In this document: piece by piece, positions 5,893 to 45,730 of the stretch
Numbering within the stretch: the stretch's first letter is position 1
How the letters are laid out: each line of letters begins with the position of its first letter
Assembly: GCA_001599355.1 (NCBI GenBank)
Contig: BCGQ01000001.1
Span: 1,429,135 to 1,493,134 of the forward strand
Origin: Nakazawaea peltata
Taxonomy: Eukaryota; Ascomycota; Pichiomycetes; Alaninales; Pachysolenaceae
Direction: 5' to 3'
DNA: 64,000 nucleotides
Made by a program: the position numbers and the translations under genes
Notes under the pieces: model-generated
The model's input: only the letters and a program-made list of their open reading frames with translations
Database searches by the model: none
What the model was told of the DNA's origin: nothing

Positions 5893-7635
5893 ATGCCGAA
5901 CAGTAATAAATCTTTACTGAAGGAGAACTCCACTAAGATCGATAACGCACTTCGTGCCATAAAATACAAAAAAGAAGTGGATCGTGACTTCTCTGTGGTA
6001 GTCACAACCGACGGGGATAAAGTCAACACCAGAGAAAGAATCGTCAGTACAGTGCCACCAGTAGCTGGTAAGAACCCATCCAATGATGACGTTTTCTTGC
6101 CTAATGGCTTACCCAATCATGAGTTCATCAAGCAGCATTTCATCAACGAAGGTCGTTTGACCGAAGACCAAGCTATCAAGATCCTCGAGATGGCCACTAA
6201 CGCCTTATCAAAAGAGCCAAATTTGTTGACGGTGCCTGCTCCGGTCAATGTTTGTGGGGATGTTCATGGTCAATATTTTGATTTGATGAAGTTATTTGAG
6301 GTCGGAGGTCACCCAAGTAACACTCAGTATTTATTCTTAGGTGACTACGTGGATAGAGGTTCGTTCTCCATCGAGTGTTTATTATACCTTTACTCATTGA
6401 AATTGAATTACCCAAACACCTTCTGGATGTTACGTGGTAACCATGAATGTAAGCATTTGACTGGATATTTCACTTTCAGAAAGGAATGTGTTCATAAGTA
6501 TTCCATGAAATTGTATAAAGTTGCCTGTGCCAGTTTCAATGCCTTACCGTTGGCTCTGATTATGAGTAACCAATTCTTCTGTGTCCATGGAGGTATCTCA
6601 CCTGAATTGAATTCTCTTGATGATATAATGGAATTGAACAGATTCAGAGAACCTCCTTCAAGAGGTCTTATGTGTGATTTGTTATGGGCTGACCCTATTG
6701 AAGATTATGATGAAGATAAAGTACGTTCTTCTTTCTTACCCAATGAAAATAGAGGTTGTTCGTATGCGTTTACTTATAAGGCAGCATGTGCATTTTTGGA
6801 GAGAACAGGGATGCTTTCGATCATTAGAGCTCATGAGGCTCAAGATGCCGGTTACAGAATGTACAAGCAAACCGAGACTTTGAAATTCCCGTCTTTAATT
6901 ACCATGTTTTCAGCCCCTAATTATCTTGATAGTTATAACAATAAGCTGCTGATTTTGAAGTATGAGAATAATGTGATGAATATTCGTCAATTCAATTGTT
7001 CACCTCATCCGTATTGGCTTCCGAATTTCATGGATGTGTTCGAATGGTCGATTCCGTTTGTTTCTGGGAAAGTTTTGGATCTGTTATCATCAGTTTTGAA
7101 TGTATGTACCGATATGGAGTTGAATGAGGAGACCGAGTTGGCAAGAGAACCATTGAAATCCATTAATGATGTAGGACCAGCATCTCCAGTCAAGACCAAA
7201 TTCAATTTGGGACAATTGGTCAGTAAACTGGAACTGCATATGGGTGAATCTAGTACAGATGAAGATCCAGATTCTTTGGATGCCAAGAAGAACTCTTTGA
7301 GAAACAAAATCATGGCTATTGGAAGAGTTAGTCGTATGTATCAAGTATTGAGAGAGGAAAGTGAGAAGGTGGAACATCTCAGAGAGTTGAGTGGTGGATC
7401 TGCATTGCCTAAGGGTGCTCTTTTGGGTGGTAGTGTATCTATCAACAAACATATATTGACATTTGAAGAGGCAAGAAAGAGAGACTTGAAGAATGAAGCG
7501 ATGCCACCAAGTGAACTGGATATTGAAAAGCAAGAACAAGAGAAGAGAGATCAATTACAACGTATTGTTGCGGAACGTGTTAACTCTGATCCACATTTAC
7601 AACGACTTGCTCGTAAACTTTCTGATTTTGATTAA
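5893..7635 (+). CDS. CNA1: Calcineurin A, Ca2+/calmodulin-dependent protein phosphatase catalytic subunit
   Basis: 580 residues. Metal-site motifs of the PPP phosphatases appear in order: GDVHGQ (about 123), GDYVDRG (about 150), RGNHE (about 181), and the HGG and RAHE loops further on. The calcineurin B-binding helix follows (VFEWSIPFVSGKV, about 379). Next are a calmodulin-binding basic segment (about 474-500) and an autoinhibitory segment containing FEEARKRD. The enzyme dephosphorylates Crz1 and other targets in stress, ion homeostasis and drug tolerance. Two consecutive CTG codons at 6946-6951 and one at 6556-6558 fall where calcineurins are normally Ala. S. cerevisiae has the same neighbourhood (YLR433C next to TSR2), and WGD yeasts also have CMP2, so the symbol stands for the single ancestral gene. 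Confidence 0.96.
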   Translation: MPNSNKSLLKENSTKIDNALRAIKYKKEVDRDFSVVVTTDGDKVNTRERIVSTVPPVAGKNPSNDDVFLPNGLPNHEFIKQHFINEGRLTEDQAIKILEMATNALSKEPNLLTVPAPVNVCGDVHGQYFDLMKLFEVGGHPSNTQYLFLGDYVDRGSFSIECLLYLYSLKLNYPNTFWMLRGNHECKHLTGYFTFRKECVHKYSMKLYKVACASFNALPLALIMSNQFFCVHGGISPELNSLDDIMELNRFREPPSRGLMCDLLWADPIEDYDEDKVRSSFLPNENRGCSYAFTYKAACAFLERTGMLSIIRAHEAQDAGYRMYKQTETLKFPSLITMFSAPNYLDSYNNKLLILKYENNVMNIRQFNCSPHPYWLPNFMDVFEWSIPFVSGKVLDLLSSVLNVCTDMELNEETELAREPLKSINDVGPASPVKTKFNLGQLVSKLELHMGESSTDEDPDSLDAKKNSLRNKIMAIGRVSRMYQVLREESEKVEHLRELSGGSALPKGALLGGSVSINKHILTFEEARKRDLKNEAMPPSELDIEKQEQEKRDQLQRIVAERVNSDPHLQRLARKLSDFD

Positions 7636-8170
7636 TTTATAGATAATGAAGGATTATATCTGATAAATTTCCCCTAACAAATTTCCCCTAACAATTTTCC
7701 TCTAACAAATCTCCCATAATAATTTCCCCTATTCATATTTTCTCTATAAATTTTCCCTATTAGTTTCCCCTATTAATTTCCCATAAGAAATTCCCATAAT
7801 AAATTCCGTAATCTTATTTTCTCTATAGACTTTCCCTATTGATTTTTCCTGGCCTTGGTTATTTCCTCTGCAAATTTCCCATACATTTTCTCTATAAATT
7901 TGTCCTTTTCATTTTCTCCCTGTCTTCTCTCTGTATTTTCTCACTGTGTGTCGCTATGGTTTTCCTGATTTCTCTACATATTTCCCTTACATTTCCCTGC
8001 TGATTTTCTCATACACTTCTCCAAGAGTCCTTAGTATTTTCCCTCCTCATTCTCCCATATATTTTCAGCCTCTGCATTTTCCGTCGATTTCCTTGCCCAA
8101 TCTGGTAATCCCAAGAAATTAAAAACGTGAATGAACTCACCATATCAATAACTACCCACCCAACCACACC
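7636..8170 (+). repeat. Pyrimidine-rich degenerate repeat array between CNA1 and LOT5
   Basis: No gene is seen. From about 7665 to 7900 the + strand repeats a loose 14-18 base unit resembling AATTTCCCCTAA, at first almost exactly (7667-7695) and then increasingly diverged into TTTTCTCTATAAATTTTCC-like copies. The array continues as C/T-rich DNA to about 8060. It separates two genes of the same orientation, so it covers the CNA1 3' end and the LOT5 promoter. Confidence 0.6.
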
Positions 8171-8989
8171 ATGAAACGATCTCCAACTGTGATAACAGTA
8201 AAGCCGTCCATCTCAAATACCGACACTATCACCTCATTGAAATTGACAACTCCTCTGTCAAATTTCTCCATGGTAGAGAATCCCATATTATATGGAGGTT
8301 CCTCATTGATGGTATTAAGATCAAGTGTCAATCTACTGAAGTCGTCCATATTTCAGGAAATCCTCGGAGATAATGAATGTTATGAGGTTGAAATAGAATT
8401 TTATGCGTTCAATACCTGTTTTATCATTTGGTTTGACCAATTTTCCAAGGGGGTCGAACTCGACTATCGCTCGCTTATATTACATGCCATTTCTACCGAT
8501 CCAGACACCGGGTTAGAATGTATTTACATGCAAATAGAGGATTCCTCGTCATTTGGAGATTTGGATCTGTCAATTGATCTGTTTATAAGATATCAAACTG
8601 GAGAGGAGCGTACTCAACTTTTCAAAGAGTTGGCCTTGAAAAATGTCATACTAAATACTTATGAACTGATTTCGGAATGCACATCTTTCCATCAAGATGA
8701 GGACGAAGATGACCAATATGAATCTAGAGAAAACACTGCATTACCTTCATTCCCTATAACATTCAAAGATGAGGAGAAAGAGCCAGAATCGGAACTCACA
8801 ATCAAAATAGACGAGAATTCAATAGCCGATGATTTAGGAAATGACGATGATATTATGATGTATAGTGATAGTATTAATAGTGGGGCAATTGTAGATGTGG
8901 GGACAACTACTTTAACGGGATCAGTACGAAGTAGGAAAGATGATGATGATGATGATGGCATACATACAAAGTCTAGAAAAATTGTATAG
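8171..8989 (+). CDS. LOT5: Lot5, ICln-like protein of unknown role
   Basis: 272 residues. The N-terminal two thirds fit the ICln/Lot5 PH-like fold (ENPILYGG at about 36-43, a beta-rich core, and the LECIYMQIED segment at about 117-126). Long acidic runs follow in the C-terminal third, ending in a stretch of consecutive Asp before a basic tail. In animals ICln (pICln) is a methylosome component that chaperones Sm proteins. Yeast Lot5 is low-temperature induced and its role is not settled. It lies next to SPE1 as in S. cerevisiae (YKL183W-YKL184W). Assignment rests on the fold pattern plus neighbourhood, so the exact function is open. Confidence 0.8.
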   Translation: MKRSPTVITVKPSISNTDTITSLKLTTPLSNFSMVENPILYGGSSLMVLRSSVNLLKSSIFQEILGDNECYEVEIEFYAFNTCFIIWFDQFSKGVELDYRSLILHAISTDPDTGLECIYMQIEDSSSFGDLDLSIDLFIRYQTGEERTQLFKELALKNVILNTYELISECTSFHQDEDEDDQYESRENTALPSFPITFKDEEKEPESELTIKIDENSIADDLGNDDDIMMYSDSINSGAIVDVGTTTLTGSVRSRKDDDDDDGIHTKSRKIV

Positions 8990-9264
8990 AAGAAGAATTA
9001 ATAGATTTATTTATAAAATTAAGGTGATGATGTGATAGGATCACAATTAAAGGATTGATCATATGGCAGAAAGGCCTGGAAAAAGATCATAAAAAAGAGC
9101 CAACATGCTCAATCCTTCTTGGTAGATACTCCTTGTATAAATATCAACACCATAACACCAATAGAGAAGAATAATACGTGGTAAGGAAGAAATGAGGTAA
9201 ACGACCGAAAATCTCTTAATGAAAGAAGAAGAACAAAAGAAGAGATCATAAGAGATGATATCGA

Positions 9265-10656
9265 TCAGACATATTTCACTTCGGATTTATGTCTGAACCC
9301 ATTAAAAGCAGTCGAAGCAGCCAAAGTGTAGGCTCCAATATCTTTGAAGAGGATCCAATCACCAACTTCTGGAACGGCTACCATTTTGGTGGATCTTGAT
9401 ACACAGTCTAAACCATCACAAGTTGGTCCCCAAAGTGAAACATCTACAGCTGAAGAATCATTTGAATCGTATCCAGGATACAAGAATCTCCCATTATGAG
9501 TCAATAACTCACCAACAGGGTTCTGATGATCATAGATAATACAGTTCAAATTCCCATATACTCCATCATTGATATAAACCATATGTTGTTGAATACCCTC
9601 AGAATCAATGAAACTTCTCTTAGCTATAACATGACACAGTAAGTAGTACAGTGATGAACACATATATCTTCCTGGTTCGGCAATAATCTTCAAATCTGGG
9701 AACAATTTCTCGGGGAAATGTAATTCCAAAGATTCATTTACCACGGTTGAAGAGTTTTCGAACGAGCTCAATTCAAATCCTCCTCCAATATCTAAAATAT
9801 CCATTGAGAATCCCATCGATTTCCCAATATCAAATAATAACTTCGAGTCCAGTACTGCTTTACGAATCAGGTCAAAATCACTACTTCCACTTCCAACATG
9901 GAACAGGACACCAGCGACGTTCAAATCCAATTCTTTGGCGAGTTTCAACAATTCCATCAGTTGAGGAATTGAAGCTCCAAATTTAGTGGATAATCTACAC
10001 TGTGCATTGTCATCGTCGGTGATAACACGCAATAACAATTTGGAAGTTGGATGATACTTGGCCATCTTTATCAACTCATCAGAGTTATCAAAAGTGGTCA
10101 TATTGACCTGCATTTGTTGCAGATAACGGATCGAAGGAGGAGATTTACAAGGATTAGCAAAGACAATCCTTTCAGGAGCTACGTTTAAGGACAAAATCGA
10201 ATCGATTTCACCCTTGGAAGCACAGTCAAAATTAGCTCCCAACTTGGCCAAGGTCTCCAAAATAGAAGGGTCATTATTACATTTGACCGCATAAAATGGT
10301 TTGACACGAGGCAACAGATGACACCAATTGGAATACAACCGAGTAATCTGGTCGGTGTCACAGACAAAGAAGGAATCTTCTTCACCTGGAGAGCAATCTT
10401 GATGATCAACAGCCATAACGTGCTCGTACAACAGTTGACCAACTTTATCGAGCTTCTGATTCATACTTGAGACCGACGACGTTGGCGTCAACATCTCATA
10501 GGACATGATAGTCCCAGAGCGGTCCGAAGTAACTTCGGCGGCTTTAACAGCTTTTCCAACCGTGATCAGAGTCGGTCTTGATTGGGAGATCTGTCTAGAT
10601 AACATTCTGTCAAGTTGAATCGTAGACGATAATTGTGGACTAAAGCGCTTCAACAT
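9265..10656 (-). CDS. SPE1: Ornithine decarboxylase, first step of polyamine synthesis
   Basis: 463 residues from the ATG at 10656; an in-frame TTG lies just upstream. The PLP-binding lysine sits in KPFYAVKCNND (about residue 125). The phosphate-binding GGG and EPGRY motifs follow, then WGPTCDGLD with the catalytic Cys of the neighbouring subunit. The C-terminus GAYTLAASTAFNGF is the family ending. The enzyme converts ornithine to putrescine in the cytosol and acts as a homodimer. About 90 extra N-terminal residues, rich in Ser/Thr, precede the catalytic core; in S. cerevisiae the N-terminus serves antizyme-stimulated, ubiquitin-independent degradation. It is convergent with LOT5. Confidence 0.96.
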   Translation of the reverse strand: MLKRFSPQLSSTIQLDRMLSRQISQSRPTLITVGKAVKAAEVTSDRSGTIMSYEMLTPTSSVSSMNQKLDKVGQLLYEHVMAVDHQDCSPGEEDSFFVCDTDQITRLYSNWCHLLPRVKPFYAVKCNNDPSILETLAKLGANFDCASKGEIDSILSLNVAPERIVFANPCKSPPSIRYLQQMQVNMTTFDNSDELIKMAKYHPTSKLLLRVITDDDNAQCRLSTKFGASIPQLMELLKLAKELDLNVAGVLFHVGSGSSDFDLIRKAVLDSKLLFDIGKSMGFSMDILDIGGGFELSSFENSSTVVNESLELHFPEKLFPDLKIIAEPGRYMCSSLYYLLCHVIAKRSFIDSEGIQQHMVYINDGVYGNLNCIIYDHQNPVGELLTHNGRFLYPGYDSNDSSAVDVSLWGPTCDGLDCVSRSTKMVAVPEVGDWILFKDIGAYTLAASTAFNGFRHKSEVKYV

Positions 10657-11608
10657 CAAATTGATCTTTTTTTAACTTCCGATACTCTACACTAAAATAA
10701 CAGTATCGCTTCTTTCTTGTTCTTCTTCTTAGAACTTTTGTTTTAACAGGCCTTTCAAGTTGATGGGATGCGAGAGGGTTTGAAAAATGGGAGGGTAAGG
10801 TTGTAAAATACTTGTACTCACTCTCACTTCATGCGGCAGCTCTCGTAATGATATTTGTCTTGGGTCAATAGCAAAACAAATACGTCAAATAATTTGATGA
10901 TTCTTCTAATTCAATCTGATAAAAAGATAATTAAATTTAAAAAAAATCACAAGCAAAAGCCAAGGGTTTGCGGTGAAATTTTTTTTCCTGCGTTAGGGGA
11001 ACAATCGCAAACTTATCTTAGGGTGATTTTAGGCTTAGATATGCGAGATGGGTTTTGTGCGTTTTGGAATTACTGTTTTTGGATATTTGTGACTTTTTTA
11101 GGGGTTAGGGCTATGAGAGGCTACAAAGGGGGATCGATATGGGAAACGATAGGGGAAACTAGTGGGGGTCCAGTGGGGGGTCAATATGGGAATAAATATG
11201 GAACAAATAGGAGAAGTGATAGGAGAAATATTGAGTCACTAAGCGGTGTTACACTACTAATCTACATTACTAATCTACACTGCTCGTATATACTGCTTAT
11301 ATACCCTGTTTAATACCCTACTTATATACACTGTTTATATGCACCGCTGATACATACTACTCTAAACTACTGTTCTAAACAACTTATCTATAGTGAGTAC
11401 ACCTATAGTGAAGTCTTCTATAGTAAGTTACTCTCTAGCTGCTACTCAATTTATATCATTCTATAGCCTCTATTCTACATCTCATTATAACTATATTATA
11501 TTATTAGCGCCGTAATCTCAGAAATTAATATTAAATAAGTCTCAATGGACCAAGAAACAAAGAAGAGAACTCAAAAGAAGTTTTTCGAGTCCTTTATGCT
11601 GCTAGTCT
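10657..11608. other. Long intergenic region SPE1-ASH1
   Basis: 950 bases. The SPE1-proximal part is its promoter. 11095-11230 contains repeated G-runs (GGGGG, GGGGAAA, TATGGGAA units). 11290-11460 contains many imperfect copies of CTATA/TATAC. A 152-codon open frame at 10855-11313 starts at TTG, is compositionally biased and matches nothing known, so it is not called. No tRNA or other RNA gene is visible. Confidence 0.5.
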
Positions 11609-13369: not shown

Positions 13370-14189
13370 TGTATAAATTCGTTGTGTGTATATTCAATAA
13401 TATCCAATTCCTGCTTGGTAAATTATTTTAGACTGTATGTAAATATTTGATGTTCTGAATTGAATACAGTGGATAAATAGCTGATCTGTTAAGTAAAAGA
13501 ATGACTAAGTGAGTGATCGAGCTAAAAGTAAAGAATGAATGGAGTGGGTGTCAAACAAAGTATGAGTGATGAGGGCTTAAACCAGGAGTCCAATGTGGCA
13601 GAATCAATTTGATTTATATCCCCCACCTAAGACATCAACAACAGGAGGCAAGTGTTGTTCCTTGCCTGATTCGATCAAATCAAATCAAGCAGACCATCGC
13701 TCCCTGCCTGCGCTGTATCCCCTTTTTTTCCTTTCTGCGTAGAAAAAAAGGGGAGGCAGGTCGAATCTGAGACTCGATTTAGTTTTTTGTTCTGTGGATT
13801 TGACAGTTTTGCGGTGCAAATAACAGGGCGATTTGCGCAGTGAGCTTGCTTGACTTTGAGGTTTGCTGGGGTTAACAAGATGGGGGAGTTAAGAAGATGG
13901 GGAGGGATGTTTCAAAAAGAGTGCTGTGATTTAGAGGTTGCTCTGGATGACATGTCTCACTGTGATATCATAGTTGTCATTGACCTAAGTTATAGACCAC
14001 GTTCTTCTTCTCGCCCCTTCATCTCATCTCCAATTTCTCCCGACCCTTCTCTTCTCCTTAGCAGTTTACAAATAAAATTCGGCGCTAAAAAATTTTATAT
14101 CGAGGAGGCTTGACTTATTGATTTTAGTTGGCGTCATCGGTGAATCCAAAGCAGGCGAAGACGCAGATCATCGCTATACCGAATAAAGA
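13370..14189. other. Divergent promoter region ASH1 / MTR2
   Basis: 820 bases between divergent genes. A long imperfect inverted repeat occupies 13703-13760 (separate entry). An 87-codon frame on + at 13850-14113 does not resemble any family and lies where the MTR2 promoter must be. Nothing else is recognised. Confidence 0.5.
13703..13760. repeat. Bulged inverted repeat, possible hairpin
   Basis: The inner arms TCCCCTTTTTTT (13718-13729) and AAAAAAAGGGGA (13743-13754) are perfectly complementary around a 13-base loop. The outer arms CCTGCC (13703-13708) and GGCAGG (13755-13760) pair as well, with a one-sided bulge. It lies 334-391 bases upstream of ASH1 and about 430 upstream of MTR2. Function is unknown; it may be a cruciform, an insulator-like element or chance low complexity. 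Confidence 0.7.
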
Positions 14190-17669: not shown

Positions 17670-19967
17670 ATGGTTCAATCATCCGTTTTAGGTTTCCCAA
17701 GAATTGGTCCAAACAGAGAGTTGAAGAAGGTCACCGAGGCCTACTGGGCTGGTAAGGTTGACCAAGCTGAGTTATTCAAGGTTGGTAAGGAATTGAGAGA
17801 GAAGAACTGGAAGTTGCAAAAGGAAGCTGGTGTCGACATCATTGCTTCTAACGATTTCTCTTTCTACGACCACGTTTTGGACTTGTCTTTGTTGTTCAAC
17901 GTTGTTCCACAAAGATACACCAAGTTCCAATTGGACCCAATTGACGTTTTCTTCGCCATGGGTAGAGGTTTGCAAAGAAAGGCTACCGAGACCACCCCAG
18001 CTGTCGATGTTCCAGCTTGTGAGATGGTTAAGTGGTTCGACTCTAACTACCATTACGTCAGACCAACTTTCTCTCACTCCACTGAGTTCAAGTTGAACGG
18101 TTCTAAGCCAGTTGACGAGTTCTTGGAAGCCAAGCTGTTGGGTATCCAAACCAGACCAGTCATTGTTGGTCCAGTCTCTTACTTGTACTTGGGTAAGGCT
18201 GACAAGGACTCTTTGGACTTGGAGCCAATTTCCTTGTTGGAGAAGATCTTGCCAGTTTACACCGAGTTGTTGCAAAAGTTGGCTGAGGCCGGTGCCACTG
18301 AGGTCCAAATCGATGAGCCAGTCTTAGTTTTGGACTTGGAAGACAACGTTAAGGCTGCTTACAAGACTGCCTACGAATACTTGTCTAAGCAAGAAGGTTT
18401 GCCAAAATTGGTTTTGGCCACTTACTTCGGTGATGTTACTCCAAACCTCGACCTGATCAAGGGTTTGCCAGTTGCTGGTTTCCACTACGATTTCGTCAGA
18501 GTTCCAGGACAATTCGATGAGGTTGTTGCTGCTTTGACCGAGTCCCAAATCTTGTCCGTCGGTATTGTTGACGGTAGAAACATCTGGAAGACCAACTTCT
18601 CTAAGGCCATTGAGTTTGTTAACAAGGCCGTTGCCAAGTTGGGTGCCGACAGAGTTGTCGTTGCCACCTCTTCCTCTTTGTTGCACACTCCAGTTGATTT
18701 GGAGAACGAGAAGAAGTTGGACGAGGAGATCAAGGGTTGGTTCTCCTTCGCTACCCAAAAGGTTAGCGAGATTGTCACTATTGCCAAGGCTGTCTCTGGT
18801 GAGGATGTCTCTGCTGCTTTAGAGGCCAACAAGGCTTCTGTTGAGTCCAGAGCCAACTCTGCCATCACCAACGACGAGGCTGTCAAGGCTAGAATGGCCA
18901 CTATTGACGAGAAGTTGTCTACCAGACCATCTGCTTTCCCAGCTAGATTGGAGGTTCAAAACGCTAAGTACAAGTTGCCATTGTTCCCAACCACCACTAT
19001 TGGTTCTTTCCCACAAACCAAGGACATCAGAATCAACAGAAACAAGTTCGCCAAGGGTACCATCACCGCTGAGGAGTACGAGGCCTTCATCAACAAGGAG
19101 ATGGAGATGGTTATCAGATTCCAAGAGGAGATTGGTTTGGACGTTTTGGTTCACGGTGAGCCAGAGAGAAACGATATGGTTCAATACTTCGGTGAGCAAT
19201 TGAAGGGTTACGCCTTCACCACCAACGGTTGGGTTCAATCTTACGGTTCCAGATACGTCAGACCACCTATTATTGTCGGTGACGTTTCTAGACCAAAGGC
19301 TATGTCTGTCAAGGAGTCTGTCTACGCTCAATCTTTGACCGACAAGCCAGTCAAGGGTATGTTGACCGGTCCAGTCACCTGTTTAAGATGGTCTTTCCCA
19401 AGAGATGACGTTTCCCAAGAGGTTCAATCCTTGCAATTAGGTTTGGCTTTGAGAGACGAGGTTCAAGATTTGGAAGCTGCCGGTATTACCGTCATCCAAG
19501 TCGATGAGCCAGCTATCAGAGAAGGTTTGCCATTGAGAGCCGGTAAGGCCAGAACTGAGTACTTGAGATGGGCTGCTGAGTCCTTCAGAGTTGCCACCTC
19601 TGGTGTTGAAGACACTACTCAAATCCACTCCCACTTCTGTTACTCTGACTTGGATCCAAACCATATCAAGGCTTTGGACGCCGATGTCGTCTCTATTGAG
19701 TTCTCCAAGAAGGATGACCCTAAGTACATCCAAGAGTTCTCTGACTACCCTAACCACATTGGTTTAGGTTTGTTCGACATCCACTCTCCAAGAATCCCAT
19801 CTGTCGAGGAATTCATCGCCAGAATCGGTGAGATCTTGAAGGTTTACCCAGCCGACAAATTCTGGGTTAACCCAGATTGTGGTTTGAAGACCAGAGGTTG
19901 GGAAGAGACCAAGGCTCAATTGACCAACATGGTTGCTGCCGCCAAACACTTCAGAGAACAAAAATAA
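17670..19967 (+). CDS. MET6: Cobalamin-independent methionine synthase
   Basis: 765 residues, the normal length. The N-terminus is SSVLGFPRIGPNRELK and the catalytic C-terminal barrel carries the zinc ligands in HSHFCYSDL (about 655-663), SIEFSKK and NPDCGLKTRGWEE. The enzyme transfers the methyl group of methyl-tetrahydrofolate to homocysteine in the cytosol. Codon use is extremely biased towards a few preferred codons (TTG, GGT, AAG, GTC/GTT, TCT), far more than its neighbours, indicating very high expression. The only CTG codons I noticed (18135-18137, 18453-18455) fall at positions compatible with Ala. The long antisense and frame-shifted open frames inside it are by-products of this codon bias. 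Confidence 0.98.
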   Translation: MVQSSVLGFPRIGPNRELKKVTEAYWAGKVDQAELFKVGKELREKNWKLQKEAGVDIIASNDFSFYDHVLDLSLLFNVVPQRYTKFQLDPIDVFFAMGRGLQRKATETTPAVDVPACEMVKWFDSNYHYVRPTFSHSTEFKLNGSKPVDEFLEAKLLGIQTRPVIVGPVSYLYLGKADKDSLDLEPISLLEKILPVYTELLQKLAEAGATEVQIDEPVLVLDLEDNVKAAYKTAYEYLSKQEGLPKLVLATYFGDVTPNLDLIKGLPVAGFHYDFVRVPGQFDEVVAALTESQILSVGIVDGRNIWKTNFSKAIEFVNKAVAKLGADRVVVATSSSLLHTPVDLENEKKLDEEIKGWFSFATQKVSEIVTIAKAVSGEDVSAALEANKASVESRANSAITNDEAVKARMATIDEKLSTRPSAFPARLEVQNAKYKLPLFPTTTIGSFPQTKDIRINRNKFAKGTITAEEYEAFINKEMEMVIRFQEEIGLDVLVHGEPERNDMVQYFGEQLKGYAFTTNGWVQSYGSRYVRPPIIVGDVSRPKAMSVKESVYAQSLTDKPVKGMLTGPVTCLRWSFPRDDVSQEVQSLQLGLALRDEVQDLEAAGITVIQVDEPAIREGLPLRAGKARTEYLRWAAESFRVATSGVEDTTQIHSHFCYSDLDPNHIKALDADVVSIEFSKKDDPKYIQEFSDYPNHIGLGLFDIHSPRIPSVEEFIARIGEILKVYPADKFWVNPDCGLKTRGWEETKAQLTNMVAAAKHFREQK

Positions 19968-22336: not shown

Positions 22337-23908
22337 ATGGAAGGAAAGATTCAACCGGATTTCGACACTTTGGAGTCGATCATATCCAAAGATAGACAAA
22401 GATTCTCCTCCGAAGAATTACCAAACTTATACCCAATTTTCGAATATGCTTCCTCGGAGTACTTGACTCCTCATTTGGCATTTTTGAAGTTGACAAGACT
22501 TGGTGATCCAACTCATAAGAAAGCGCCATCATTTTTGTTCGAGAGCGCCAAGAATGGTGACACCATTGACCGGTTCTCATTCATCGGTTTCAACCCTAAA
22601 AAGATCATCAAGACTGGTCCAGAATTTGACAATGAGTGTGACCCGTTGGTACTTTTGGAAGAAGAATTGAAGAATATCAGACAGCTGGAGTTACCCCTGA
22701 TCCCAAAATTGAGTGGTGGTGCTATCGGATACATCTCTTATGATTGTATCAAGTATTTCGAACCTAAGACCAAGAGGGAATTGAAGGATGTCTTGAAGTT
22801 ACCAGAACTGGCTTTGATGTTATTTGATTTGATTGTAGCTTTTGACCATGTTTTCCAAAGATTCCAGATCATTAACAATATCCAAGTCAACCCAGAAGAT
22901 AGTTCGCAAGATTTGCAGATGAAATTTTTGCTGCTGGTGAAGGAAATCGAGTCCGTTAGAAAGACTTTGACTGATATGAGTAGTCCAGTTCCTTACCCTG
23001 ACCAACCTGCTATCAAATTGGATCAAGATTTCACCTCCAATATTGGTCAAGAAGGTTATGAAAACCATGTCAAAACATTGAAGGAACACATCTTGAAAGG
23101 TGATATTTTCCAACTGGTGCCTTCTCAAAGAATCGCCAGACCAACCTCGTTGCATCCTTTCAACATTTACCGTCATTTGAGAACCGTCAACCCATCTCCA
23201 TACCTTTTCTATATTGATTATTTGGATTTCCAGATTGTCGGAGCGTCTCCTGAACTTTTAGTCAAGTCTGATGTCAATAATAAAATCATCACCCATCCAA
23301 TCGCTGGAACTTTACCAAGAGGTCAAACCAGAGAGGAAGATGATGCTAATGCTGTGCTGTTGAAACTGTCGCTCAAGGACACTGCTGAGCATGTGATGTT
23401 GGTAGACTTGGCTAGAAACGATGTCAACAGAGTCTGTGATCCACAATCGACCTCTGTAGATAGATTGTTATCAGTTGAGAGATTTTCTCATGTTATGCAT
23501 TTGGTCTCCGAAGTTAGTGGTACCTTAAGACCAGATAAGACCAGATTTGATGCCTTCAGATCGATTTTCCCTGCCGGTACTGTCAGTGGAGCTCCAAAGG
23601 TGAAGCTGATGACTTTGATCAGTGAGTTGGAGAAGGAAAAGAGAGGTGTATATGCTGGTGCAGTAGGTCATTGGTCATATGACGGACGTACCATGGATAC
23701 TTGTATTGCTTTAAGAACCATGGTAGTTAAGGATGGAGTCCTGTATTTACAAGCTGGTGGTGGTATTGTCTATGATAGTGATCCATATGATGAATATATG
23801 GAGACCATGAATAAGATGAGGGCTAATAATAATACTATTGTTCAAGCTGAGAAGATTTGGTCTGAGAGGCTTCAAGATGATAAGTATGAGAGTGAGGCTG
23901 ATAATTAG
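22337..23908 (+). CDS. TRP2: Anthranilate synthase component I
   Basis: 523 residues from the ATG at 22337. The N-terminal half carries the tryptophan feedback-binding motif FLFES (about 66-70). The C-terminal half is the chorismate-binding domain, with HPIAGTLPRGQT, AEHVMLVDLARND, GTVSGAPKVK and QAGGGIVYDSDP. With the Trp3 glutamine amidotransferase it makes anthranilate from chorismate, the first committed step of tryptophan synthesis. Three CTG codons (22808-22810, 23606-23608, 23741-23743) stand where fungal TRP2 proteins have Ala. The frame continues upstream to a GTG at 22259 without resemblance to the family, so the ATG is preferred. Confidence 0.96.
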   Translation: MEGKIQPDFDTLESIISKDRQRFSSEELPNLYPIFEYASSEYLTPHLAFLKLTRLGDPTHKKAPSFLFESAKNGDTIDRFSFIGFNPKKIIKTGPEFDNECDPLVLLEEELKNIRQLELPLIPKLSGGAIGYISYDCIKYFEPKTKRELKDVLKLPELALMLFDLIVAFDHVFQRFQIINNIQVNPEDSSQDLQMKFLLLVKEIESVRKTLTDMSSPVPYPDQPAIKLDQDFTSNIGQEGYENHVKTLKEHILKGDIFQLVPSQRIARPTSLHPFNIYRHLRTVNPSPYLFYIDYLDFQIVGASPELLVKSDVNNKIITHPIAGTLPRGQTREEDDANAVLLKLSLKDTAEHVMLVDLARNDVNRVCDPQSTSVDRLLSVERFSHVMHLVSEVSGTLRPDKTRFDAFRSIFPAGTVSGAPKVKLMTLISELEKEKRGVYAGAVGHWSYDGRTMDTCIALRTMVVKDGVLYLQAGGGIVYDSDPYDEYMETMNKMRANNNTIVQAEKIWSERLQDDKYESEADN

Positions 23909-23940
23909 ATAGGTGATGAATAGATTGATAGACTGATAAG

Positions 23941-37206: not shown

Positions 37207-37256
37207 TTGAAGGGTAAGGGCGGTTAGCTTAGAAGAGGAAGGATAGATCTGACAAA

Positions 37257-38094
37257 ATGGTGAGTATGGTTTTGGAGCACGATGTCCTGGCGTTAATACT
37301 AACAACAATAGCCTCAAAACGAATATATTGAACAGCATATCAAACAACATGGTAGAAGATTAGATTATGAGGAGAAGAAGAGAAAGAAGGAAGCAAGAGA
37401 ACATCACAGAGTGGCTAAAGATGCTCAAACATTGAAGGGATGGAGAGGTAAACAGTTCGCTAAGAAGCGTTATGCTGAGAAGACCGAGTTGAAGAAGAAG
37501 ATCAGAGCACATGAAGAGAGTAAAGTTAATGGACCATCCAAGCCTGCTAATGATAACGAGGAGGCATTGCCAACATATCTTTTGGACAGACAAACAAATA
37601 ATCAAGCCAAAGCCATTTCTTCTTCGATTAAACAGAAGAGATTGGAGAAGCTGGATAAATTCAGTGTACCATTACCAAAGGTTAGAGGTATTAGTGAGGA
37701 AGAGATGTTCAAGGTGATCAAGACAGGTAGCAAGAAGAGTAAATCTTGGAAGAGAATGATTACAAAACATACATTTGTCGGTGAAGGATTCACTCGTAGA
37801 CCAGTTAAGATGGAGAGAATTATCAGACCATCTGCTTTAAGACAGAAGAAACTGAATGTGACACACCCAGAATTGAAGGTAACTGTTCTCTTACCAATCT
37901 TAGCTGTCAAGAAGAACCCACAAAGTTCCATGTACACTCAATTAGGTGTATTAACCAAGGGTACTATTATTGAAGTCAATGTCAGTGAGATGGGTTTGGT
38001 TACTGCTGGAGGTAAAGTTGTTTGGGGTAAATATGCCCAAATTACTAACGAACCAGATAGAGACGGATGTGTCAACGCTGTCTTGTTAGTTTAA
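37257..38094 (+). CDS. NSA2: Nsa2, 60S ribosome biogenesis factor (spliced, ATG-only first exon)
   Basis: Exon 1 is the ATG (37257-37259) and exon 2 is 37312-38094, giving 261 residues, identical in length to S. cerevisiae Nsa2. The spliced start [15 protein letters not shown] matches the family. The basic N-terminal helix region is followed by the eS8-like beta-barrel domain ([45 protein letters not shown]) and the invariant end [10 protein letters not shown]. Nsa2 acts on nuclear pre-60S particles and is needed for 27SB processing. Two CTG codons (37651-37653, 37852-37854) stand where S. cerevisiae Nsa2 has Ala. Orthology is certain. Confidence 0.98.
37260..37311 (+). other. NSA2 intron (52 nt)
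   Basis: Donor GTGAGT at 37260-37265, branch point TACTAAC at 37297-37303, acceptor AATAG ending at 37311, only eight bases after the branch point. It follows the initiator ATG directly, the same placement as in MPT5. Confidence 0.9.
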
Positions 38095-38592
38095 CGCATT
38101 TATTTCTCTGCATTTGTACGACCTTTTTTTATATTTATATACAATCTTTTAGTTCGATAATCTTGTAGAGAGTTACCTTAAAGAGTAGTGATCCCAACGG
38201 TGGTACCCCACGCCATGTCCCCACGCTTCCTCGATGATCTTCGCCCTGCGCAATTCTCCTCTTGCGGTTGCCCCACCCTATCTCGCTAGTCACTTATCCC
38301 ACTTTTTCTCTCCAACTCCGGGGTAATTCTCCAATTTTTTCATTTTATGTTTGTAACGGTTCAAGTTTGGGGAATTTGAATTGTAAACGTTAGATCGGAG
38401 TCTCGACTCATTCATTTAAGCATCATATCCAGCCCATTCCCACGAATTGGCCCCACCGACAAATCTGGATAAAATTGGACTACCCTTCCAAACCACATCA
38501 TATTAAGCGAGAGACCCCACGACAAATCAGGTAATCCGCTTTATGTCAATTACTAATTGAATCAACATATACACCATAGTAACCTCACAACG
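38095..38592. other. Intergenic NSA2 - C2H2 regulator
   Basis: 498 bases between genes in the same orientation. It includes a T/A-rich NSA2 3' end and the upstream region of the regulator. No ORF or RNA gene is recognised. Confidence 0.5.
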
Positions 38593-41475
38593 ATGACGAT
38601 GTTCAAATGTACAGAGCCTGGGTGTGATAAAGTATTCTCCCGAAGTGGCCATCTCACAAGGCACAGGCTCAATCATAACCCTGATGTGATCTACAAATGT
38701 CATTTTGAGAGTTGCGGGAAGACTTTCGTTAGAAATGATTTACTTAAGAGGCACTTGAAACGCCATGATTTGAGATCGGCCAAGATACGAAACAACAACT
38801 TCAAAGATTTAAGGAAATTGGGACCAGAAAGGATATCAAAGGACCTGGATTTCCAGAAACTTCTAGCCGAGAAAGACCCTGATGAGATCAAGATCGTACA
38901 ATTACAAGATAAAAGCAAAGATATTGTTCATGAGTTGATCCGGAAGCCGAAATCCGGAAGACGGGACAGTTTGAGAGATGTCAAGGGAGAAGTGGATTCT
39001 TCGTCGATTTCACCTGGATATCATCAGATAAGTGCTGTTTCTTCAGTGAGGACCGAGCTGCCACCACTTGGATCATATCCTTCTGCCGTCAAGACACCCA
39101 ACGGGGCTCATACCCCTCAATTACAAAGTATTCTGGCTAATCCTTCGAATAAACTTCTCGATTGGATCTTCAATACTGAAACAAGTGTCGAGCCAAGCTC
39201 CAACCAACAATCGTTCCCCATAGAACAGCCTTCTCAAACACAGAATTTAGATCAACTTCTGCTATCTCAAGGACAATCTGCTGTTGTTCCTCGGAATTCT
39301 ACCCTGGTTGCCGGTGCCACATCAACACCTGCTCCTCCTCATCAAGAGTTGGACAGCTTGTTCTTCAATAATATGAACAACTTCAATATCGAGTCGTTAT
39401 TCCTCTCGGATGACGATGTCAACAGTCGCGGCAACAGCCAATACCAAGTGTCTCCAAATTCTTTGTTATTGAATATGTTCAACGACCCCACCTTGTTCCC
39501 CAATAACGGAACTTTCCTGCAGTATAAAAGTAAGTTGATTAAGATCGATGAGTTCATCTACACGGACATGATCAAGTTGATTCCTCAATTATCAAGGAAC
39601 CCAGACTTCACTATCTCGAATATCGAGGATCTTTTGGAGTCATATTGGAGGTTCTTCCATCCTTCATTACCTTTCTTACACAAGCCATCTTTCAGCACTG
39701 TGGAGGCACCAATTCTACTTTTATTGTCGATGATAATGATCGGAAGTCGTTACGTCGAGTGTCAATACTACAATGTAAAGAGAGGTAAGATGGAGACCAA
39801 GCTGGGCAAGTTTAAGAATGCTGCGAAATTGGGGATCCTGATCGCAGAGCCATTAAGATGGTTGATCTTCTCGTCTCGCGAATTTGCTCCTCCTTCTAAG
39901 ATCTGGGTCTTCCAAAGTTTGATCATGTTGGAATTCTTCGAGAAATCATGCTCCTCAAGAGTATTACATGAACGTAGTCACTTACATCATGGAACTATCA
40001 TTCAGTTGTTAAGAAGATCTCCCTCTTTGGGAGGTAACCCGATCAAGTTGGATAATAAGAACACTTCCGAGTTGACAAACCATGATATTTGGAAGAGATG
40101 GGTCAATATAGAATCGATGAAGAGAATCACCTTCCTGGTATTCTATCTCGATGTCATTGATGCTATCAGGTACGGACATCAAGTGATGGTATTTGCTCAT
40201 CAGATCCAATTGCCTATGCCATGCGATGATGAGTTATGGGAGAACATGAAAGTTAACAATGATGAGAATGGAACTGTAGTACCGAAGCAACCGTTGTTCT
40301 TGGATTCCTTGAAAGCCATGCTAAATGGGGGGTCTGTTGATACTACCAACTTTGGGAAGGAGATCTTATTGGCTGGTATCTTATCGGTGATGTTCCAACT
40401 GCAACAGAGAGAGTTACAGATCTCGTATGGTTTGGAACAACAAGTGCAACAACCCAACAGGAATTGGAGGGAACTGATCTCCTTACTGTTGTCGATCTGG
40501 GAGAATGATATTGTAGGTAGTTGTAGTAATACTTTGATTCTGGTGCCGACTCATCAAGCCAGTATGGGGGAGATTGCAAAGTCCCCTGCTAATACTTACG
40601 ACCATTCTCAACAACAGCAACCTCCATCTCAACATACACCTAACTCAACTCTGTCGATTTACAGTACGGATGAATTTGAAGAGACAGGGGCAATGATTCC
40701 TCTGTTCAATACGGCCGATACTACTTGCAAACACACTTCGTATCACATACTGCATTTGTATATGAGAATACCTCACTATGACTTTATCGTGATGGCAGGA
40801 GCTCCTTATTGGATGAACGTGAGACCTAGTAATAACGATAGGGCAGCAATAAGGGTGAGAATGGAGCATTTCTTTAAGACTAGAGATGCCCGTATTGCTT
40901 TGATCCACTGTTATTTGCTTGCTTGGGAGACATTCTTGGCTCCTCAAGATGACCCAGAGAACCCCGATAGAGCCAATCTGTATCTGGCAGCAAGTGATGT
41001 GTTCAATAGATCTACCATGATAGGTATGGCTTTAGTATATTTGTGGGACTACAATTATATCACTGAGGGTATAGAAAACACAGCATTGAAGGCTGACCCG
41101 AGCAAGAAACTCGATGAGATCAGAGAACAAGAGAATGGGTATGATTATTTGAGACGTATCAGACGCGAATTGTGTAATCTTTGTGATGGACAGTTTGTTC
41201 AAATTCATCGTTATTGTCGTCAATCGGGTCAGGAGAACCTTCGTATCTTGTTACGTTACGCTGATAACATTGACAAGGTCAGAAACAAACATCTCATGGT
41301 TGGTTTGCTCAAGATGGTGCTGGATATTTTCCGACTGAGCGAAAATGAACTTACCAGGGAACATGGAAGATTATTAAGTAATTGTGCGAAGAGAAGTTGT
41401 GGATCACTGCAAGAGATCTGTGAGGACATGTATCATGTCCCACGTAAGGAGAACACTGGTGAGGGGGGTAATTAA
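38593..41475 (+). CDS. C2H2 zinc-finger transcription factor with fungal-specific middle domain
   Basis: 960 residues from the ATG at 38593 (a second in-frame ATG lies two codons later; the frame reaches back to a TTG at 38557). Two C-x4-C-x12-H-x3-H fingers lie at the very N-terminus: CTEPGCDKVFSRSGHLTRH and CHFESCGKTFVRNDLLKRH. A basic segment and a long Ser/Gln/Asn-rich linker follow. The second half is the fungal-specific transcription factor domain (LLESYWRFFHPSLPFLHKPS at about 355-374, then DIWKRWVNIESMKRITFLVF). This architecture is shared by S. cerevisiae Sdd4, Rsf2 and Tda9 and S. pombe Klf1. SDD4 is a neighbour of AGC1 there, and AGC1 lies two genes away here, a weak hint. The target genes are unknown. 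Confidence 0.85.
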   Translation: MTMFKCTEPGCDKVFSRSGHLTRHRLNHNPDVIYKCHFESCGKTFVRNDLLKRHLKRHDLRSAKIRNNNFKDLRKLGPERISKDLDFQKLLAEKDPDEIKIVQLQDKSKDIVHELIRKPKSGRRDSLRDVKGEVDSSSISPGYHQISAVSSVRTELPPLGSYPSAVKTPNGAHTPQLQSILANPSNKLLDWIFNTETSVEPSSNQQSFPIEQPSQTQNLDQLLLSQGQSAVVPRNSTLVAGATSTPAPPHQELDSLFFNNMNNFNIESLFLSDDDVNSRGNSQYQVSPNSLLLNMFNDPTLFPNNGTFLQYKSKLIKIDEFIYTDMIKLIPQLSRNPDFTISNIEDLLESYWRFFHPSLPFLHKPSFSTVEAPILLLLSMIMIGSRYVECQYYNVKRGKMETKLGKFKNAAKLGILIAEPLRWLIFSSREFAPPSKIWVFQSLIMLEFFEKSCSSRVLHERSHLHHGTIIQLLRRSPSLGGNPIKLDNKNTSELTNHDIWKRWVNIESMKRITFLVFYLDVIDAIRYGHQVMVFAHQIQLPMPCDDELWENMKVNNDENGTVVPKQPLFLDSLKAMLNGGSVDTTNFGKEILLAGILSVMFQLQQRELQISYGLEQQVQQPNRNWRELISLLLSIWENDIVGSCSNTLILVPTHQASMGEIAKSPANTYDHSQQQQPPSQHTPNSTLSIYSTDEFEETGAMIPLFNTADTTCKHTSYHILHLYMRIPHYDFIVMAGAPYWMNVRPSNNDRAAIRVRMEHFFKTRDARIALIHCYLLAWETFLAPQDDPENPDRANLYLAASDVFNRSTMIGMALVYLWDYNYITEGIENTALKADPSKKLDEIREQENGYDYLRRIRRELCNLCDGQFVQIHRYCRQSGQENLRILLRYADNIDKVRNKHLMVGLLKMVLDIFRLSENELTREHGRLLSNCAKRSCGSLQEICEDMYHVPRKENTGEGGN

Positions 41476-41785
41476 AATGTATAATATTATAGTGTATATG
41501 AATTGAGATTATGTATTAGAATAAATAGTGTTAAAATTTGTTTTTTTAAATGTTTCGTTGTCCTTCTGGGTCCTGCTTGGTCCTTCGCCCCATCTCTGTT
41601 TTTACCCCTTTTACCCCTCTGCCCCCTTTTATAGTTTTTTCTAATTGAACTTGCCCCTTCACAAAATTTCTGCCCTTTCCCCATCGCGCCCCCATCGCGC
41701 CCAAGACCGCGATTTTTTTCGCGACTGAAAACAAACAAAAAACCCCCAATTTTTGATAACATCTCATTAATATAGAGACCTCGAT
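41476..41785. promoter_or_regulatory. SAE2 upstream region with an SBF-type (SCB) motif
   Basis: 310 bases. 41560-41710 is C/T-rich with many TACCCC and TGCCC units. TTTCGCG at 41717-41723 is CGCGAAA on the other strand, the SCB consensus, 63 bases before the SAE2 ATG. G1/S control would suit a resection gene, but the motif is short. Confidence 0.4.
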
Positions 41786-43191
41786 ATGACAGCGGCGGTT
41801 TATCTGTCATTGGACCGTATACGGCCGATTCTTGAATCGTTTGAGTACCAGATATCGCAAAAATTTGAACAAAGTAGGTAGTTTTGAACTCTGGGTTCTT
41901 GTTTACAATTACTAACTCTGATCGACCAGAAATATCCCAGTTGGAAAATGAAAATACCAGGCTAAGGGAAGATAATGTCGAGCTTACAAGGCTTAATGAA
42001 GAATACTTGGCAACAATTGATCGAATGAGTCGAAACAGAGGTGATCAATCCAACAATGAACCAAAAATAGACGGCCCTGAAGTTTCTGATCAGATCTCTC
42101 AGCTGCCACCATCTCCAGCACAAAATTTGCATCGTCCAGTCACGGTGAAGAAAGAACCCACTGATGAGGTAATCACCTCTGACAATTCAGGTCCATCTTC
42201 TCCAGTACAAGAAAGAGAAGATCACTTCCTTCCTTTCCTTTCCCCTACTCAATACTCCTCGTCCCCTAATGCAATTTCACAAAATGAACCAACTGGAAAT
42301 GATATCTCAAAGAAGACCACTGAATCTCAGTCACGCAAGGAATCTTATTCAATTTTCCATGAAGGTTTAGATATATATTTGAATCATTCGGGTGAAGAAG
42401 AGGAAGAATCCTTCTTCGACAATTTGCACGACTCACCTTTAAGTCAACGTAAACGCAAGTTCGAAATTGAAGACTCTCAAAAAGATTATGAGATCTTGAA
42501 GGTGAACAAAACTCCAAATGGTGTGCCCAACGTGGTGAAAAAAGAATCTACAACAAACACAAGAGTGCCTTTACTGGATATAACACATAATAAGAGAAAC
42601 AAATCTCGAAATGTATTGGATATACAGAGTTCTGTTAAAATTGTCGATCTAAGTCAAAACTTTGTGGAAGGTCGTGATTGGAATTATCTGGATTTCCAAC
42701 CCAATCCCCTGGTTTGTGATCCAGAATCCGGTCTTTTTTCTAAAGACCTTAATGCCCGTAGTCTTGGAGAAACCAAAAAGCAATGTCAATGTCTTAACTG
42801 TATTCGTTTTTATGAGCTTTCTGGAATGCCAATCAACTTGTCACGAGAAGACAAACTTAAATTGTATCTCAACAAAATTAATCATGGACAACAACACCAT
42901 CTCTTCAATTTCAGTGCAGATGCTCCAGGAATCGGCAGGTCCGAGTTCCCAACTTCACAAGAACTGAGGCAAGATAAACTGAATCTGCTGAAAATTAATA
43001 AAGCCAAACTGCTCATGAGACTCCTCCAATCTTTACAAAGAGACCCCAAGAGCAACAAGCAAACGGGTCTTTTCATATTCAGAAACCAAGATTGTAACAA
43101 TATCGTTAAATCTGGCAAATTTAAGATCGGAGATTGGGTTTACAACGAGTTGGAGAATTTCATCAGAGATAAAGAGCTGGGACTACTTTGA
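41786..43191 (+). CDS. SAE2: Sae2/CtIP family DNA end-resection factor (spliced)
   Basis: Exon 1 is 41786-41873 and exon 2 is 41930-43191, giving 449 residues. The N-terminus is a coiled coil continued across the junction (ISQLENENTRLREDNVELTR), as in the Sae2/Ctp1/CtIP tetramerisation region. A disordered Ser/Pro/Glu-rich middle part with several potential CDK sites follows. Near the C-terminus is the family block APGIGRSEFPTSQE (about 363-376) and FIFRNQDCNNIVKSG. Sae2 activates the Mre11 nuclease to open hairpin or protein-blocked DNA ends. A CxC/CxxC cluster (CQCLNCIRF, about 312) may bind zinc. S. cerevisiae SAE2 is YGL175C, next to BUD13. The protein is longer than Sae2 (345) and closer to CtIP-like length. 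Confidence 0.88.
41874..41929 (+). other. SAE2 intron (56 nt)
   Basis: Donor GTAGGT at 41874-41879 (slightly unusual), branch point TACTAAC at 41910-41916, acceptor CCAG ending at 41929. It joins exon 1 (29 codons plus one base) to the coiled-coil frame without a stop. Confidence 0.82.
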
Positions 43192-43288
43192 AATGATGTG
43201 TAACATAAATAAATCGTAAGTCATTATATTAAATATAGACGTTGCGTAAAACTCTCTTTTTGATAAATAGTATAAATAAACGACGTCA

Positions 43289-45730
43289 TCATCTCTTCTT
43301 GCTGAGATAGTCGATGTAGTCGATTTTGTCGAAGCTGATCTTGAAATCATTACAGATGTTGTTGATTTTGTCGAAACTTTTGATGATACGGAACTGTAAC
43401 AAACTTTCTAACCCATAAGAATAGTCCTTGATATCTTTATTGATCATCACTCCCTCGCTAGTGCCTTCGAGAGGTGAGTCGTTGTTACCAATTCCGTAAT
43501 AGTTAAACTTGGTCAACTTGGTGTAGGCAGTGTTACCGGTCATGTTACTAATCTTGGCTGGGTTAATAACAGATAAGGCAGCAACATCATCGTCGTCTGC
43601 ATCTCCATCCCGGCGATTATAACCATGAGTCTTCTTGGTGAACATCTTGTCAAAGGAGAAACTCTTTTGTAATAATTCATAACTCAGCAAAGTGAAACCA
43701 AATTGAGGGGATGATCTCATAACTCTGGCCATGCCTCCTTTGAAGAACAGTTTGAATCCTTCTTCTTTCAAGATGGTCGATGCACAGTGTCTAATTCCGA
43801 GGTATTTGGTTTCGTGTTGCTTTGTTTCCACTTGCAATCTTGTCTTCAAGACGTCAAATGGAGTGGTGAAATACAGCAGAGGAACACCTGCAAGGGCACC
43901 AGAGACAAGTAATTGTAAAGAGGACAAATGTTGGGTCTTTGAAGGGTCGGTGGGGTCGAAATTGAATAAGTATTTCTTCAAATTGGCATAAGTTGGGAAA
44001 TAAATAGCACTGAATGGAACATCTCTCATCAAACACAGAGATGCACCTTTATACAAACCTGTAATACCCAACTTTTTAATGATGTCAATCAGAGAAATAC
44101 GTACTTGGCTCTCACCCAGAACTTGTAATCTAATTTTTACAATTTCCAATGGGTTTGTGAAGACCACTTGAGCGGCACCAGCAGAACAACCTGCCAGTAA
44201 CTCCCATTGAATAGGAACATGGCCATTCTGGTCGGAACCCAATTTACGAACTAAATCATTTACGGTTAACTTAATCAGCTTCTCTGGGGCAACACCAATC
44301 CACTGAGGGATAATTCCACGGTAAAATCCACGTAAACCTTCCATTTGGAACACTTTTACAAAACAGTCCAAATATCCACTATACAATTTGACATTTCTCT
44401 GCAGTTGCATTCTAGTCTTGACCAAATCAATGGGGTACACCATAGTAGCACCGAAGGCACCAGCAATGGAACCCAATAAGAATGAGTGGACAGATTCGAA
44501 GAATTGTCCTCCTGACAGAACATCAGGCAAATAAGATTTTACAATATACATTAAACCGGATTCTCTCTCGGTTTTCTTATTATGACTCAAAATCTTCTTA
44601 GTGGAGTTCAAATCAAAGTCACTTAACAAAGTCAAAACTTCCAACTTGTTGATATAATCCTTGGAAGTATTTGGGTTAGCCAAATGCTCATGGAGAATAA
44701 CCCAATTCCAATAGAAATACATATCAATTTCCTCCATGTCAGTCAAAGACTGCAAATGAGGGATCAAATTATTATAGTCGTTGACATATCTATAAAACTG
44801 ATCGGCACTGATCAAATTATTGGAACTTGTCCCCGTCTGATAGATATTGTTAAGCAATAAATAGTTGAATTTAGGCAAATTTTGCAAAAAGCTGATGATC
44901 AGCAAACATTGCTTATAATTCAAATCGGCTCCAGTTTTGGAGAAAAAGGGAATCAAATCATCGATCTTGTCTACAACTTGAGTCGGAATATGACTGCCTA
45001 CGAAGATCTTCTCCTTCAACAAAGACTTAAAATCATTGAGGGAAATGGTGTCGGAGTTGAACTGGTTGAAATCGTAGGTGAAATTGATCACAGATAAACT
45101 TTGAACCATCTGAATGAAGGTGTCATAATCGATTTCGGAACCCGGCTTCAAAGTGAAAGTCTTCTTGTTCTTTGGACTCTGCATATAAAATTGAATACGG
45201 TCATGTAACTCTGGGTTGAACTTCTTAACAATCTGGAAGAAGTGGTCACATTGGATAGAATTCTCCAAAGGATTAGAACCAGAATCGACAAGTTCCTTTT
45301 CCAAGATCTTGAATAACTTGAAGACAAACTTATACTCATCATCAGTCTCTAACTCTATATTATCAATGGAGGCGATCTTCAAGTGCTTATAATTCAAGTC
45401 ATAGTTGTTATGTAAGAACAATAAGCCTCTACTGAATTTCAACCAGTCATAGAGGTTCAATTCACCTTGCTTGTTGGCATCGGCAATCAAAAAGAGCAAC
45501 TCGCTATTTGGCTTATCGTTGAATATCAGCCTGAAACCATCCAAATTGATCAGTTTGTGCAGATTATTCGAGTACTCGATGAAAAGTTTAGTCAAGTTGG
45601 AGTTGATATCCTTAGGCGACAACTTCAGGATCTCATCTTCCTCAAAAGTAGTGAACTTCAACAACTTAGGCAACGATCTCTTGCTGATCGGCTTCGGTGT
45701 AAGTAAATCTAACAGCTTGGCGTCTGACAT
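43289..45730 (-). CDS. AGC1: Mitochondrial aspartate-glutamate carrier with N-terminal EF-hand-like domain
   Basis: 813 residues. The N-terminal 390 residues are an EF-hand-like regulatory domain of the aralar/citrin type. The C-terminal half has three mitochondrial-carrier repeats with signatures YPIDLVKTRMQ, NPLEIVKIRLQ and TPFDVLKTRLQ. The block APEKLIKLTVND carries a CTG codon (44276-44278, minus strand) at the L, where aralar proteins have Ala. The carrier exchanges matrix aspartate for cytosolic glutamate at the inner membrane. About 110 poorly conserved residues follow the last repeat. It is convergent with SAE2 (97 bases between stops). It corresponds to S. cerevisiae YPR021C. Confidence 0.94.
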   Translation of the reverse strand: MSDAKLLDLLTPKPISKRSLPKLLKFTTFEEDEILKLSPKDINSNLTKLFIEYSNNLHKLINLDGFRLIFNDKPNSELLFLIADANKQGELNLYDWLKFSRGLLFLHNNYDLNYKHLKIASIDNIELETDDEYKFVFKLFKILEKELVDSGSNPLENSIQCDHFFQIVKKFNPELHDRIQFYMQSPKNKKTFTLKPGSEIDYDTFIQMVQSLSVINFTYDFNQFNSDTISLNDFKSLLKEKIFVGSHIPTQVVDKIDDLIPFFSKTGADLNYKQCLLIISFLQNLPKFNYLLLNNIYQTGTSSNNLISADQFYRYVNDYNNLIPHLQSLTDMEEIDMYFYWNWVILHEHLANPNTSKDYINKLEVLTLLSDFDLNSTKKILSHNKKTERESGLMYIVKSYLPDVLSGGQFFESVHSFLLGSIAGAFGATMVYPIDLVKTRMQLQRNVKLYSGYLDCFVKVFQMEGLRGFYRGIIPQWIGVAPEKLIKLTVNDLVRKLGSDQNGHVPIQWELLAGCSAGAAQVVFTNPLEIVKIRLQVLGESQVRISLIDIIKKLGITGLYKGASLCLMRDVPFSAIYFPTYANLKKYLFNFDPTDPSKTQHLSSLQLLVSGALAGVPLLYFTTPFDVLKTRLQVETKQHETKYLGIRHCASTILKEEGFKLFFKGGMARVMRSSPQFGFTLLSYELLQKSFSFDKMFTKKTHGYNRRDGDADDDDVAALSVINPAKISNMTGNTAYTKLTKFNYYGIGNNDSPLEGTSEGVMINKDIKDYSYGLESLLQFRIIKSFDKINNICNDFKISFDKIDYIDYLSKKR

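Follow-up and report, generated by a model that had tools for sequence, protein, structure and literature searches.

The 64,000-nucleotide stretch of Nakazawaea peltata contig BCGQ01000001.1 analysed here, referred to as the window, includes the genes for anthranilate synthase I (TRP2; 22337..23908, forward strand), the aspartate/glutamate carrier (AGC1; 43289..45730, reverse strand), ornithine decarboxylase (SPE1; 9265..10656, reverse strand) and calcineurin A (CNA1; 5893..7635, forward strand), all of which contain CTG codons. The meaning of this codon is the subject of the present study. A preliminary description of the window had proposed that CUG is translated as alanine, as in Pachysolen, Nakazawaea and Peterozyma, and column statistics, Pfam scores, a tRNA with anticodon CAG and a phylogenetic tree bear this out. 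We regard it as almost certain that CUG stands mainly for alanine in the nuclear code of the window. This code is known (NCBI table 26), has been published for the Alaninales and is ordinary for the clade.

Codons were counted, with CTG masked, in 24 of the 29 open reading frames (ORFs) of the window, with the frame at 585-1058 left aside, as were four frames overlapping with others. CTG makes up 247 of 12,967 codons (19 per 1000), to which the two CTG of the spliced NSA2 gene are additional, and CTA is nearly avoided (15 codons, 1.2 per 1000). If every CTG were alanine, CTG would contribute about 28 % of the alanine codons (247/883). GCG is scarce too, with 29 codons, whereas CTG is common. 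The eleven codons cited in the preliminary description were all verified to be CTG and in frame.

For comparison with homologs, CTG was entered as X in TRP2, SPE1, AGC1, MET6, NSA2 and XRN1, and the CNA1 query against PDB was translated under code 26. Alignment columns of TRP2, AGC1 and SPE1 were examined using, for each protein, the 120 best of the homologs reported (8000, 3626 and 4897, respectively), a few of them non-fungal; these sets were thinned at 92 % identity to 73, 103 and 119 sequences. These three proteins hold 37 CTG codons, and 35 columns were scored, two AGC1 columns with too few homologs being left out. Alanine forms the majority in 19 of the 35 columns, serine in two and leucine in one, the remainder being occupied by other residues or mixed, in agreement with the earlier view that leucine and serine fit less well than alanine. 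Among GCN codons, 44 of 66 columns are alanine-majority. Leucine codons other than CTG fall in leucine-majority columns in 91 of 154 cases and in alanine-majority columns in two, serine codons in serine-majority columns in 42 of 129 and in alanine-majority columns in six, and for the remaining codons 12 of 1222 columns have an alanine majority. The p-values of these comparisons are descriptive, as the homologs are mutually related and some are perhaps stored under a wrong code; with this reading, the alanine majority at CTG compares with 20 of 1505 columns for all non-alanine codons (Fisher p = 8.5e-24), and leucine-majority columns are scarcer at CTG than at the other leucine codons (p = 1.1e-10). 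A summed log score in the style of Codetta is positive for alanine alone (Ala +34.0, Ser -44.0, Leu -65.4).

On examination of individual columns, six of the ten CTG codons of TRP2 were found to be alanine-majority, namely 22685-22687 (Ala in 68 of 73 homologs), 22808-22810 (55/73), 22934-22936 (62/73), 23114-23116 (71/73), 23606-23608 (73/73) and 23741-23743 (72/73). Three of these, at residues 158, 424 and 469 (the second, fifth and sixth), had been cited before as alanine positions and hold up, with serine in the other 18 homologs at residue 158; the four remaining columns are led by Gly (71), Lys (25), Glu (27, with Ile 25) and Ser (54) of 73. AGC1 has 17 CTG codons, eight of them in alanine-majority columns: 44402-44404 (91/103), 44276-44278 (101/102; residue 485, likewise cited before and upheld), 44090-44092 (101/103), 44036-44038 (102/103), 43877-43879 (82/103), 43874-43876 (102/103), 43748-43750 (93/103) and 43685-43687 (99/103). 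Among its other nine, seven columns are led by Asn, Val, Thr, Phe, Phe, Leu and Gln, and two have too few homologs. SPE1, which the preliminary description had not cited, contributes five alanine-majority columns out of ten CTG, at 10432-10434 (97/118), 10120-10122 (109/119), 9904-9906 (71/119), 9649-9651 (97/119) and 9637-9639 (111/119), the other five being led by Ser (19/75), Lys (25/119), Val (66/118), Ser (89/119) and Arg (61/119).

Domain scores point in the same direction. When six proteins were scored against Pfam under codes 1, 12 and 26, code 26 was best in all eight CTG-bearing domains, and a ninth domain without CTG scored level under all three. In CNA1, which has eight CTG codons, residues 222, 352 and 353 (6556-6558, 6946-6948 and 6949-6951) had been described as conserved alanines, and alanine is indeed found in five of five PDB chains among the matches listed, chains that represent few distinct proteins; CTG 397 lies opposite Met and four further CTG fall outside the listed alignments. 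The second exon of NSA2 (37312..38094, forward strand, read stop to stop) has two CTG codons, and both are found opposite alanine as previously claimed, in four of four (37651-37653) and five of five (37852-37854) covering PDB chains among the matches listed. Read by eye, a short intron with a TACTAAC branch-point motif directly follows the NSA2 start codon (region 37260-37311). The two CTG codons of MET6, the cobalamin-independent methionine synthase (17670..19967, forward strand), had also been put forward as alanine sites; at 18135-18137 and 18453-18455 three near-identical PDB chains do carry alanine, however the fourth chain listed has Glu and Val, and the MET6 sites appear supportive but weak as backing for the code.

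The window itself contains zero tRNA genes according to ARAGORN. Two patterns for tRNAs with anticodon CAG, neither permitting an intron, were run over the 11.63-Mb assembly: the first gave five matches, one of them a tRNA gene, and the second gave 15, none a tRNA by ARAGORN. The gene, hereafter tRNA(CAG), lies on contig C4 at 81426-81498 (forward strand), folds into a cloverleaf and is followed by a run of T; a DNA search of the assembly, which reports lower bounds, gave this single match. The cloverleaf has G3:U70, A73, G37, A35 and a single mismatch, T6.T67. Its variable arm is of five bases, unlike the long variable arm seen in the tRNA-Leu genes of the same genome. ARAGORN labels it tRNA-Leu, from the anticodon. 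G3:U70 is the established alanine determinant, and together with A73 and the short variable arm it would mark tRNA(CAG) as alanine-accepting. The CAG tRNA with alanine identity elements that the preliminary description had suggested seeking in the rest of the assembly was found, once. Neither of the outcomes contrary to its proposal is seen: CTG columns are not mainly leucine or serine, and the sole CAG tRNA found lacks leucine features.

The genome was found to encode tRNA-Ala with anticodons AGC (four genes) and TGC (two), and nine tRNA-Leu genes were found, with CAA (five), UAA (two), AAG (one) and UAG (one). Sixty-three tRNAs were scored out of 608 candidates, and the anticodon CAG is missing from all of them. 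A tRNA-Leu(CAG) is absent from the nine tRNA-Leu genes found, an absence to be taken with caution: an intron-bearing copy would have escaped the patterns, just as the intron-bearing tRNA-Leu(UAG) escaped both the D-arm pattern and ARAGORN with introns limited to 80. One tRNA-Leu(CAA) gene (contig C7, near 154353) also has an intron and is misread by ARAGORN as tRNA-Val(CAC).

The most likely route to alanine is charging through G3:U70 combined with direct pairing of CAG with CUG. The single tRNA(CAG) found would be charged by alanyl-tRNA synthetase because its G3:U70 and A73 give it an alanine acceptor identity and a long variable arm is lacking; this enzyme is indifferent to the anticodon. 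The charged tRNA would then decode CUG by full pairing, and tRNA-Leu(AAG), presumably as IAG, and tRNA-Leu(UAG) would read CUU, CUC and CUA as leucine. The data show CTG at conserved alanine columns, the tRNA gene with its sequence and the place in the tree; charging, modifications and the exclusivity of alanine decoding are what we infer.

The tRNA-Leu(UAG) gene (contig C4, 804518-804725, reverse strand), the only one with this anticodon that was found, contains a 120-nt intron predicted to form one long hairpin (-37.9 kcal/mol, z = -5.6 against shuffles). It resembles the large structured introns described in the tRNA-Leu(CAG) of certain yeasts that read CUG as leucine (PMC5951914). Among the papers listed in a literature search, judged by title and opening of the abstract, none concerned such a tRNA-Leu(UAG) intron, and we do not claim it as unreported. 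It is conceivable, though doubtful, that leucine competition for CUG is restrained at tRNA processing, with the hairpin intron keeping mature U34-bearing tRNA-Leu scarce; such scarcity would match the near-avoidance of CUA, and a little leucine might still be read at CUG.

The position of the genome was assessed with a midpoint-rooted tree of 21 taxa from concatenated TRP2, AGC1 and SPE1 proteins, in which 12 taxa are without one or two genes, the rows for Komagataella, Ogataea and Lachancea each combine proteins from two species of the genus, and deep branches elsewhere are poorly supported. The window groups with a close relative (proteins P0126, P0005 and P0245, assigned to one organism by identity alone) at 100/100 (SH-aLRT/UFBoot), and both group with Pachysolen at 99.6/99. 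Komagataella, Ogataea and Kuraishia come next in the drawing, and the window is placed outside them as well as outside the sampled Ser1 yeasts. On this placement, the nuclear genome of the window is assigned to the Alaninales, which NCBI taxonomy lists as one family with the genera Pachysolen, Nakazawaea and Peterozyma; of these, Nakazawaea or Peterozyma is the most likely genus. In the close relative, leucine stands at 6 of 17 AGC1 columns that are otherwise at least 90 % alanine (P0126), at 2 of 21 such columns in TRP2 (P0005) and at 0 of 12 in SPE1 (P0245); the leucines in P0126 and P0005 are what would be expected of a relative that also reads CUG as alanine but whose proteins were translated by the standard code, and for P0126 this is probably the case.

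Several observations weigh against an alanine reading of CUG. In 16 of the 35 scored columns alanine has no majority, and at AGC1 CTG 512 leucine occurs in 63 of 102 homologs. The XRN1 homolog (47127..51338, reverse strand) has 27 CTG codons, several in variable columns of its core and many in a tail rich in Ala/Lys and Ala/Pro/Thr; its aligned core shows no consistent residue at CTG against PDB chains and no clear signal. In the leucyl-, isoleucyl- and valyl-tRNA synthetases (LeuRS, IleRS and ValRS) encoded elsewhere in the genome, PDB alignments read by eye cover 23 of 34 CTG, of which five lie opposite alanine, one opposite leucine and the rest are mixed, a weak comparison, as the listed LeuRS chains hardly differ from one another and a lone chain of bacterial type serves as the reference for ValRS. 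XRN1 and the three synthetases are little informative, since their CTG codons lie in variable columns or their references are distant. A mitochondrial-type IleRS (P0368) has 33 CTG. A homolog-free classifier of sequence context, applied to the 24 ORFs leaving one gene out, divided CTG into 87 Ala, 83 Leu and 77 Ser; it was rejected as powerless, true alanine codons not being recovered as alanine either. The tRNA too is equivocal in its body: among 48 sequence entries, some of which repeat a gene with one additional terminal base and which do not include tRNA-Val(CAC) or (AAC), tRNA(CAG) is slightly closer to tRNA-Val(UAC) (52/73) than to tRNA-Ala(AGC) (49/73). With an acceptor end that is alanine-like and a whole that is closer to Val(UAC), it may come from a source gene with either an alanine or a valine body; the CAG tRNA of the Ala clade is said to derive from tRNA-Ala (PMC5951914).

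Were CUG leucine as in the standard code, the alanine matches would be coincidence or the result of mutation to leucine. The leucine majority at AGC1 512 and the name that ARAGORN gives to tRNA(CAG), by its anticodon, would suit this reading, however a single leucine-majority column in 35 against 91 in 154 for other leucine codons, the alanine enrichment at CTG and the missing long variable arm of tRNA-Leu make it extremely improbable. A serine code as in Candida (table 12) accommodates the two serine-majority columns and the rank of serine as second commonest residue at several, and the serine translation outscores leucine in seven of the eight CTG-bearing Pfam domains. Code 26 nevertheless exceeds code 12 in all eight, the log score is strongly negative for serine and positive for alanine, tRNA(CAG) is not of the tRNA-Ser type with a long variable arm, and the genome does not group with the Scheffersomyces-Priceomyces-Suhomyces yeasts; serine decoding is hardly credible here.

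Decoding might also be ambiguous, CUG being mostly alanine with measurable leucine, either through mischarging of the tRNA or through wobble by tRNA-Leu(UAG). A35, G37 and A73 are leucine identity elements in yeast, and tRNA(CAG) carries all three. The gene for tRNA-Leu(UAG), a possible leucine competitor for CUG, exists in the genome, and G37 has been blamed for about 3 % leucine mischarging of the tRNA-Ser(CAG) of C. albicans (PMC5951914). Against this stand the near-invariant alanine columns that CTG occupies and the figures cited for Pachysolen, where alanine is given as >99 % and a claim of 10 % leucine is attributed to method (PMC8645108). We consider such ambiguity very unlikely.

Reading CUG as alanine has practical consequences. 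Reassignment of a sense codon is very rare in nuclear genomes, and annotation of such genes under the standard code errs at about 2 % of codons (247/12,967); the same error is visible in P0126 of the close relative, with leucine at alanine columns, and the key gene is labelled tRNA-Leu by ARAGORN. Being frequent in the window and placed at conserved alanine columns, CTG appears to be by now an ordinary alanine codon in this lineage. In the clades that changed code, CUG is described as relatively rare and tending to avoid conserved sites (PMC5951914), whereas in the window it is not rare and often occupies conserved alanine columns.

The closest known system is that of Pachysolen tannophilus (table 26), which shares CUG at alanine columns and a CAG tRNA with alanine acceptor features and is the neighbour of the window in the tree, although identities of 80 % in TRP2, 64 % in the carrier part of AGC1 and 57 % in SPE1 indicate a different species. 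Krassowski et al. 2018 (PMC5951914) defined the Ala clade with Pachysolen, Nakazawaea and Peterozyma, and the present genome, adjoining Pachysolen, agrees with it; a 2024 study of codon usage treats the whole of the Alaninales as CUG-Ala (PMC11540330). The CUG-Ser1 yeasts (Candida and relatives) and CUG-Ser2 yeasts (Ascoidea, Saccharomycopsis) had the same codon reassigned, likewise through a new CAG tRNA, but differ in the amino acid, the source of the tRNA and the clades concerned. CUG reassignments are described as involving amino acids whose synthetase ignores the anticodon (PMC5951914).

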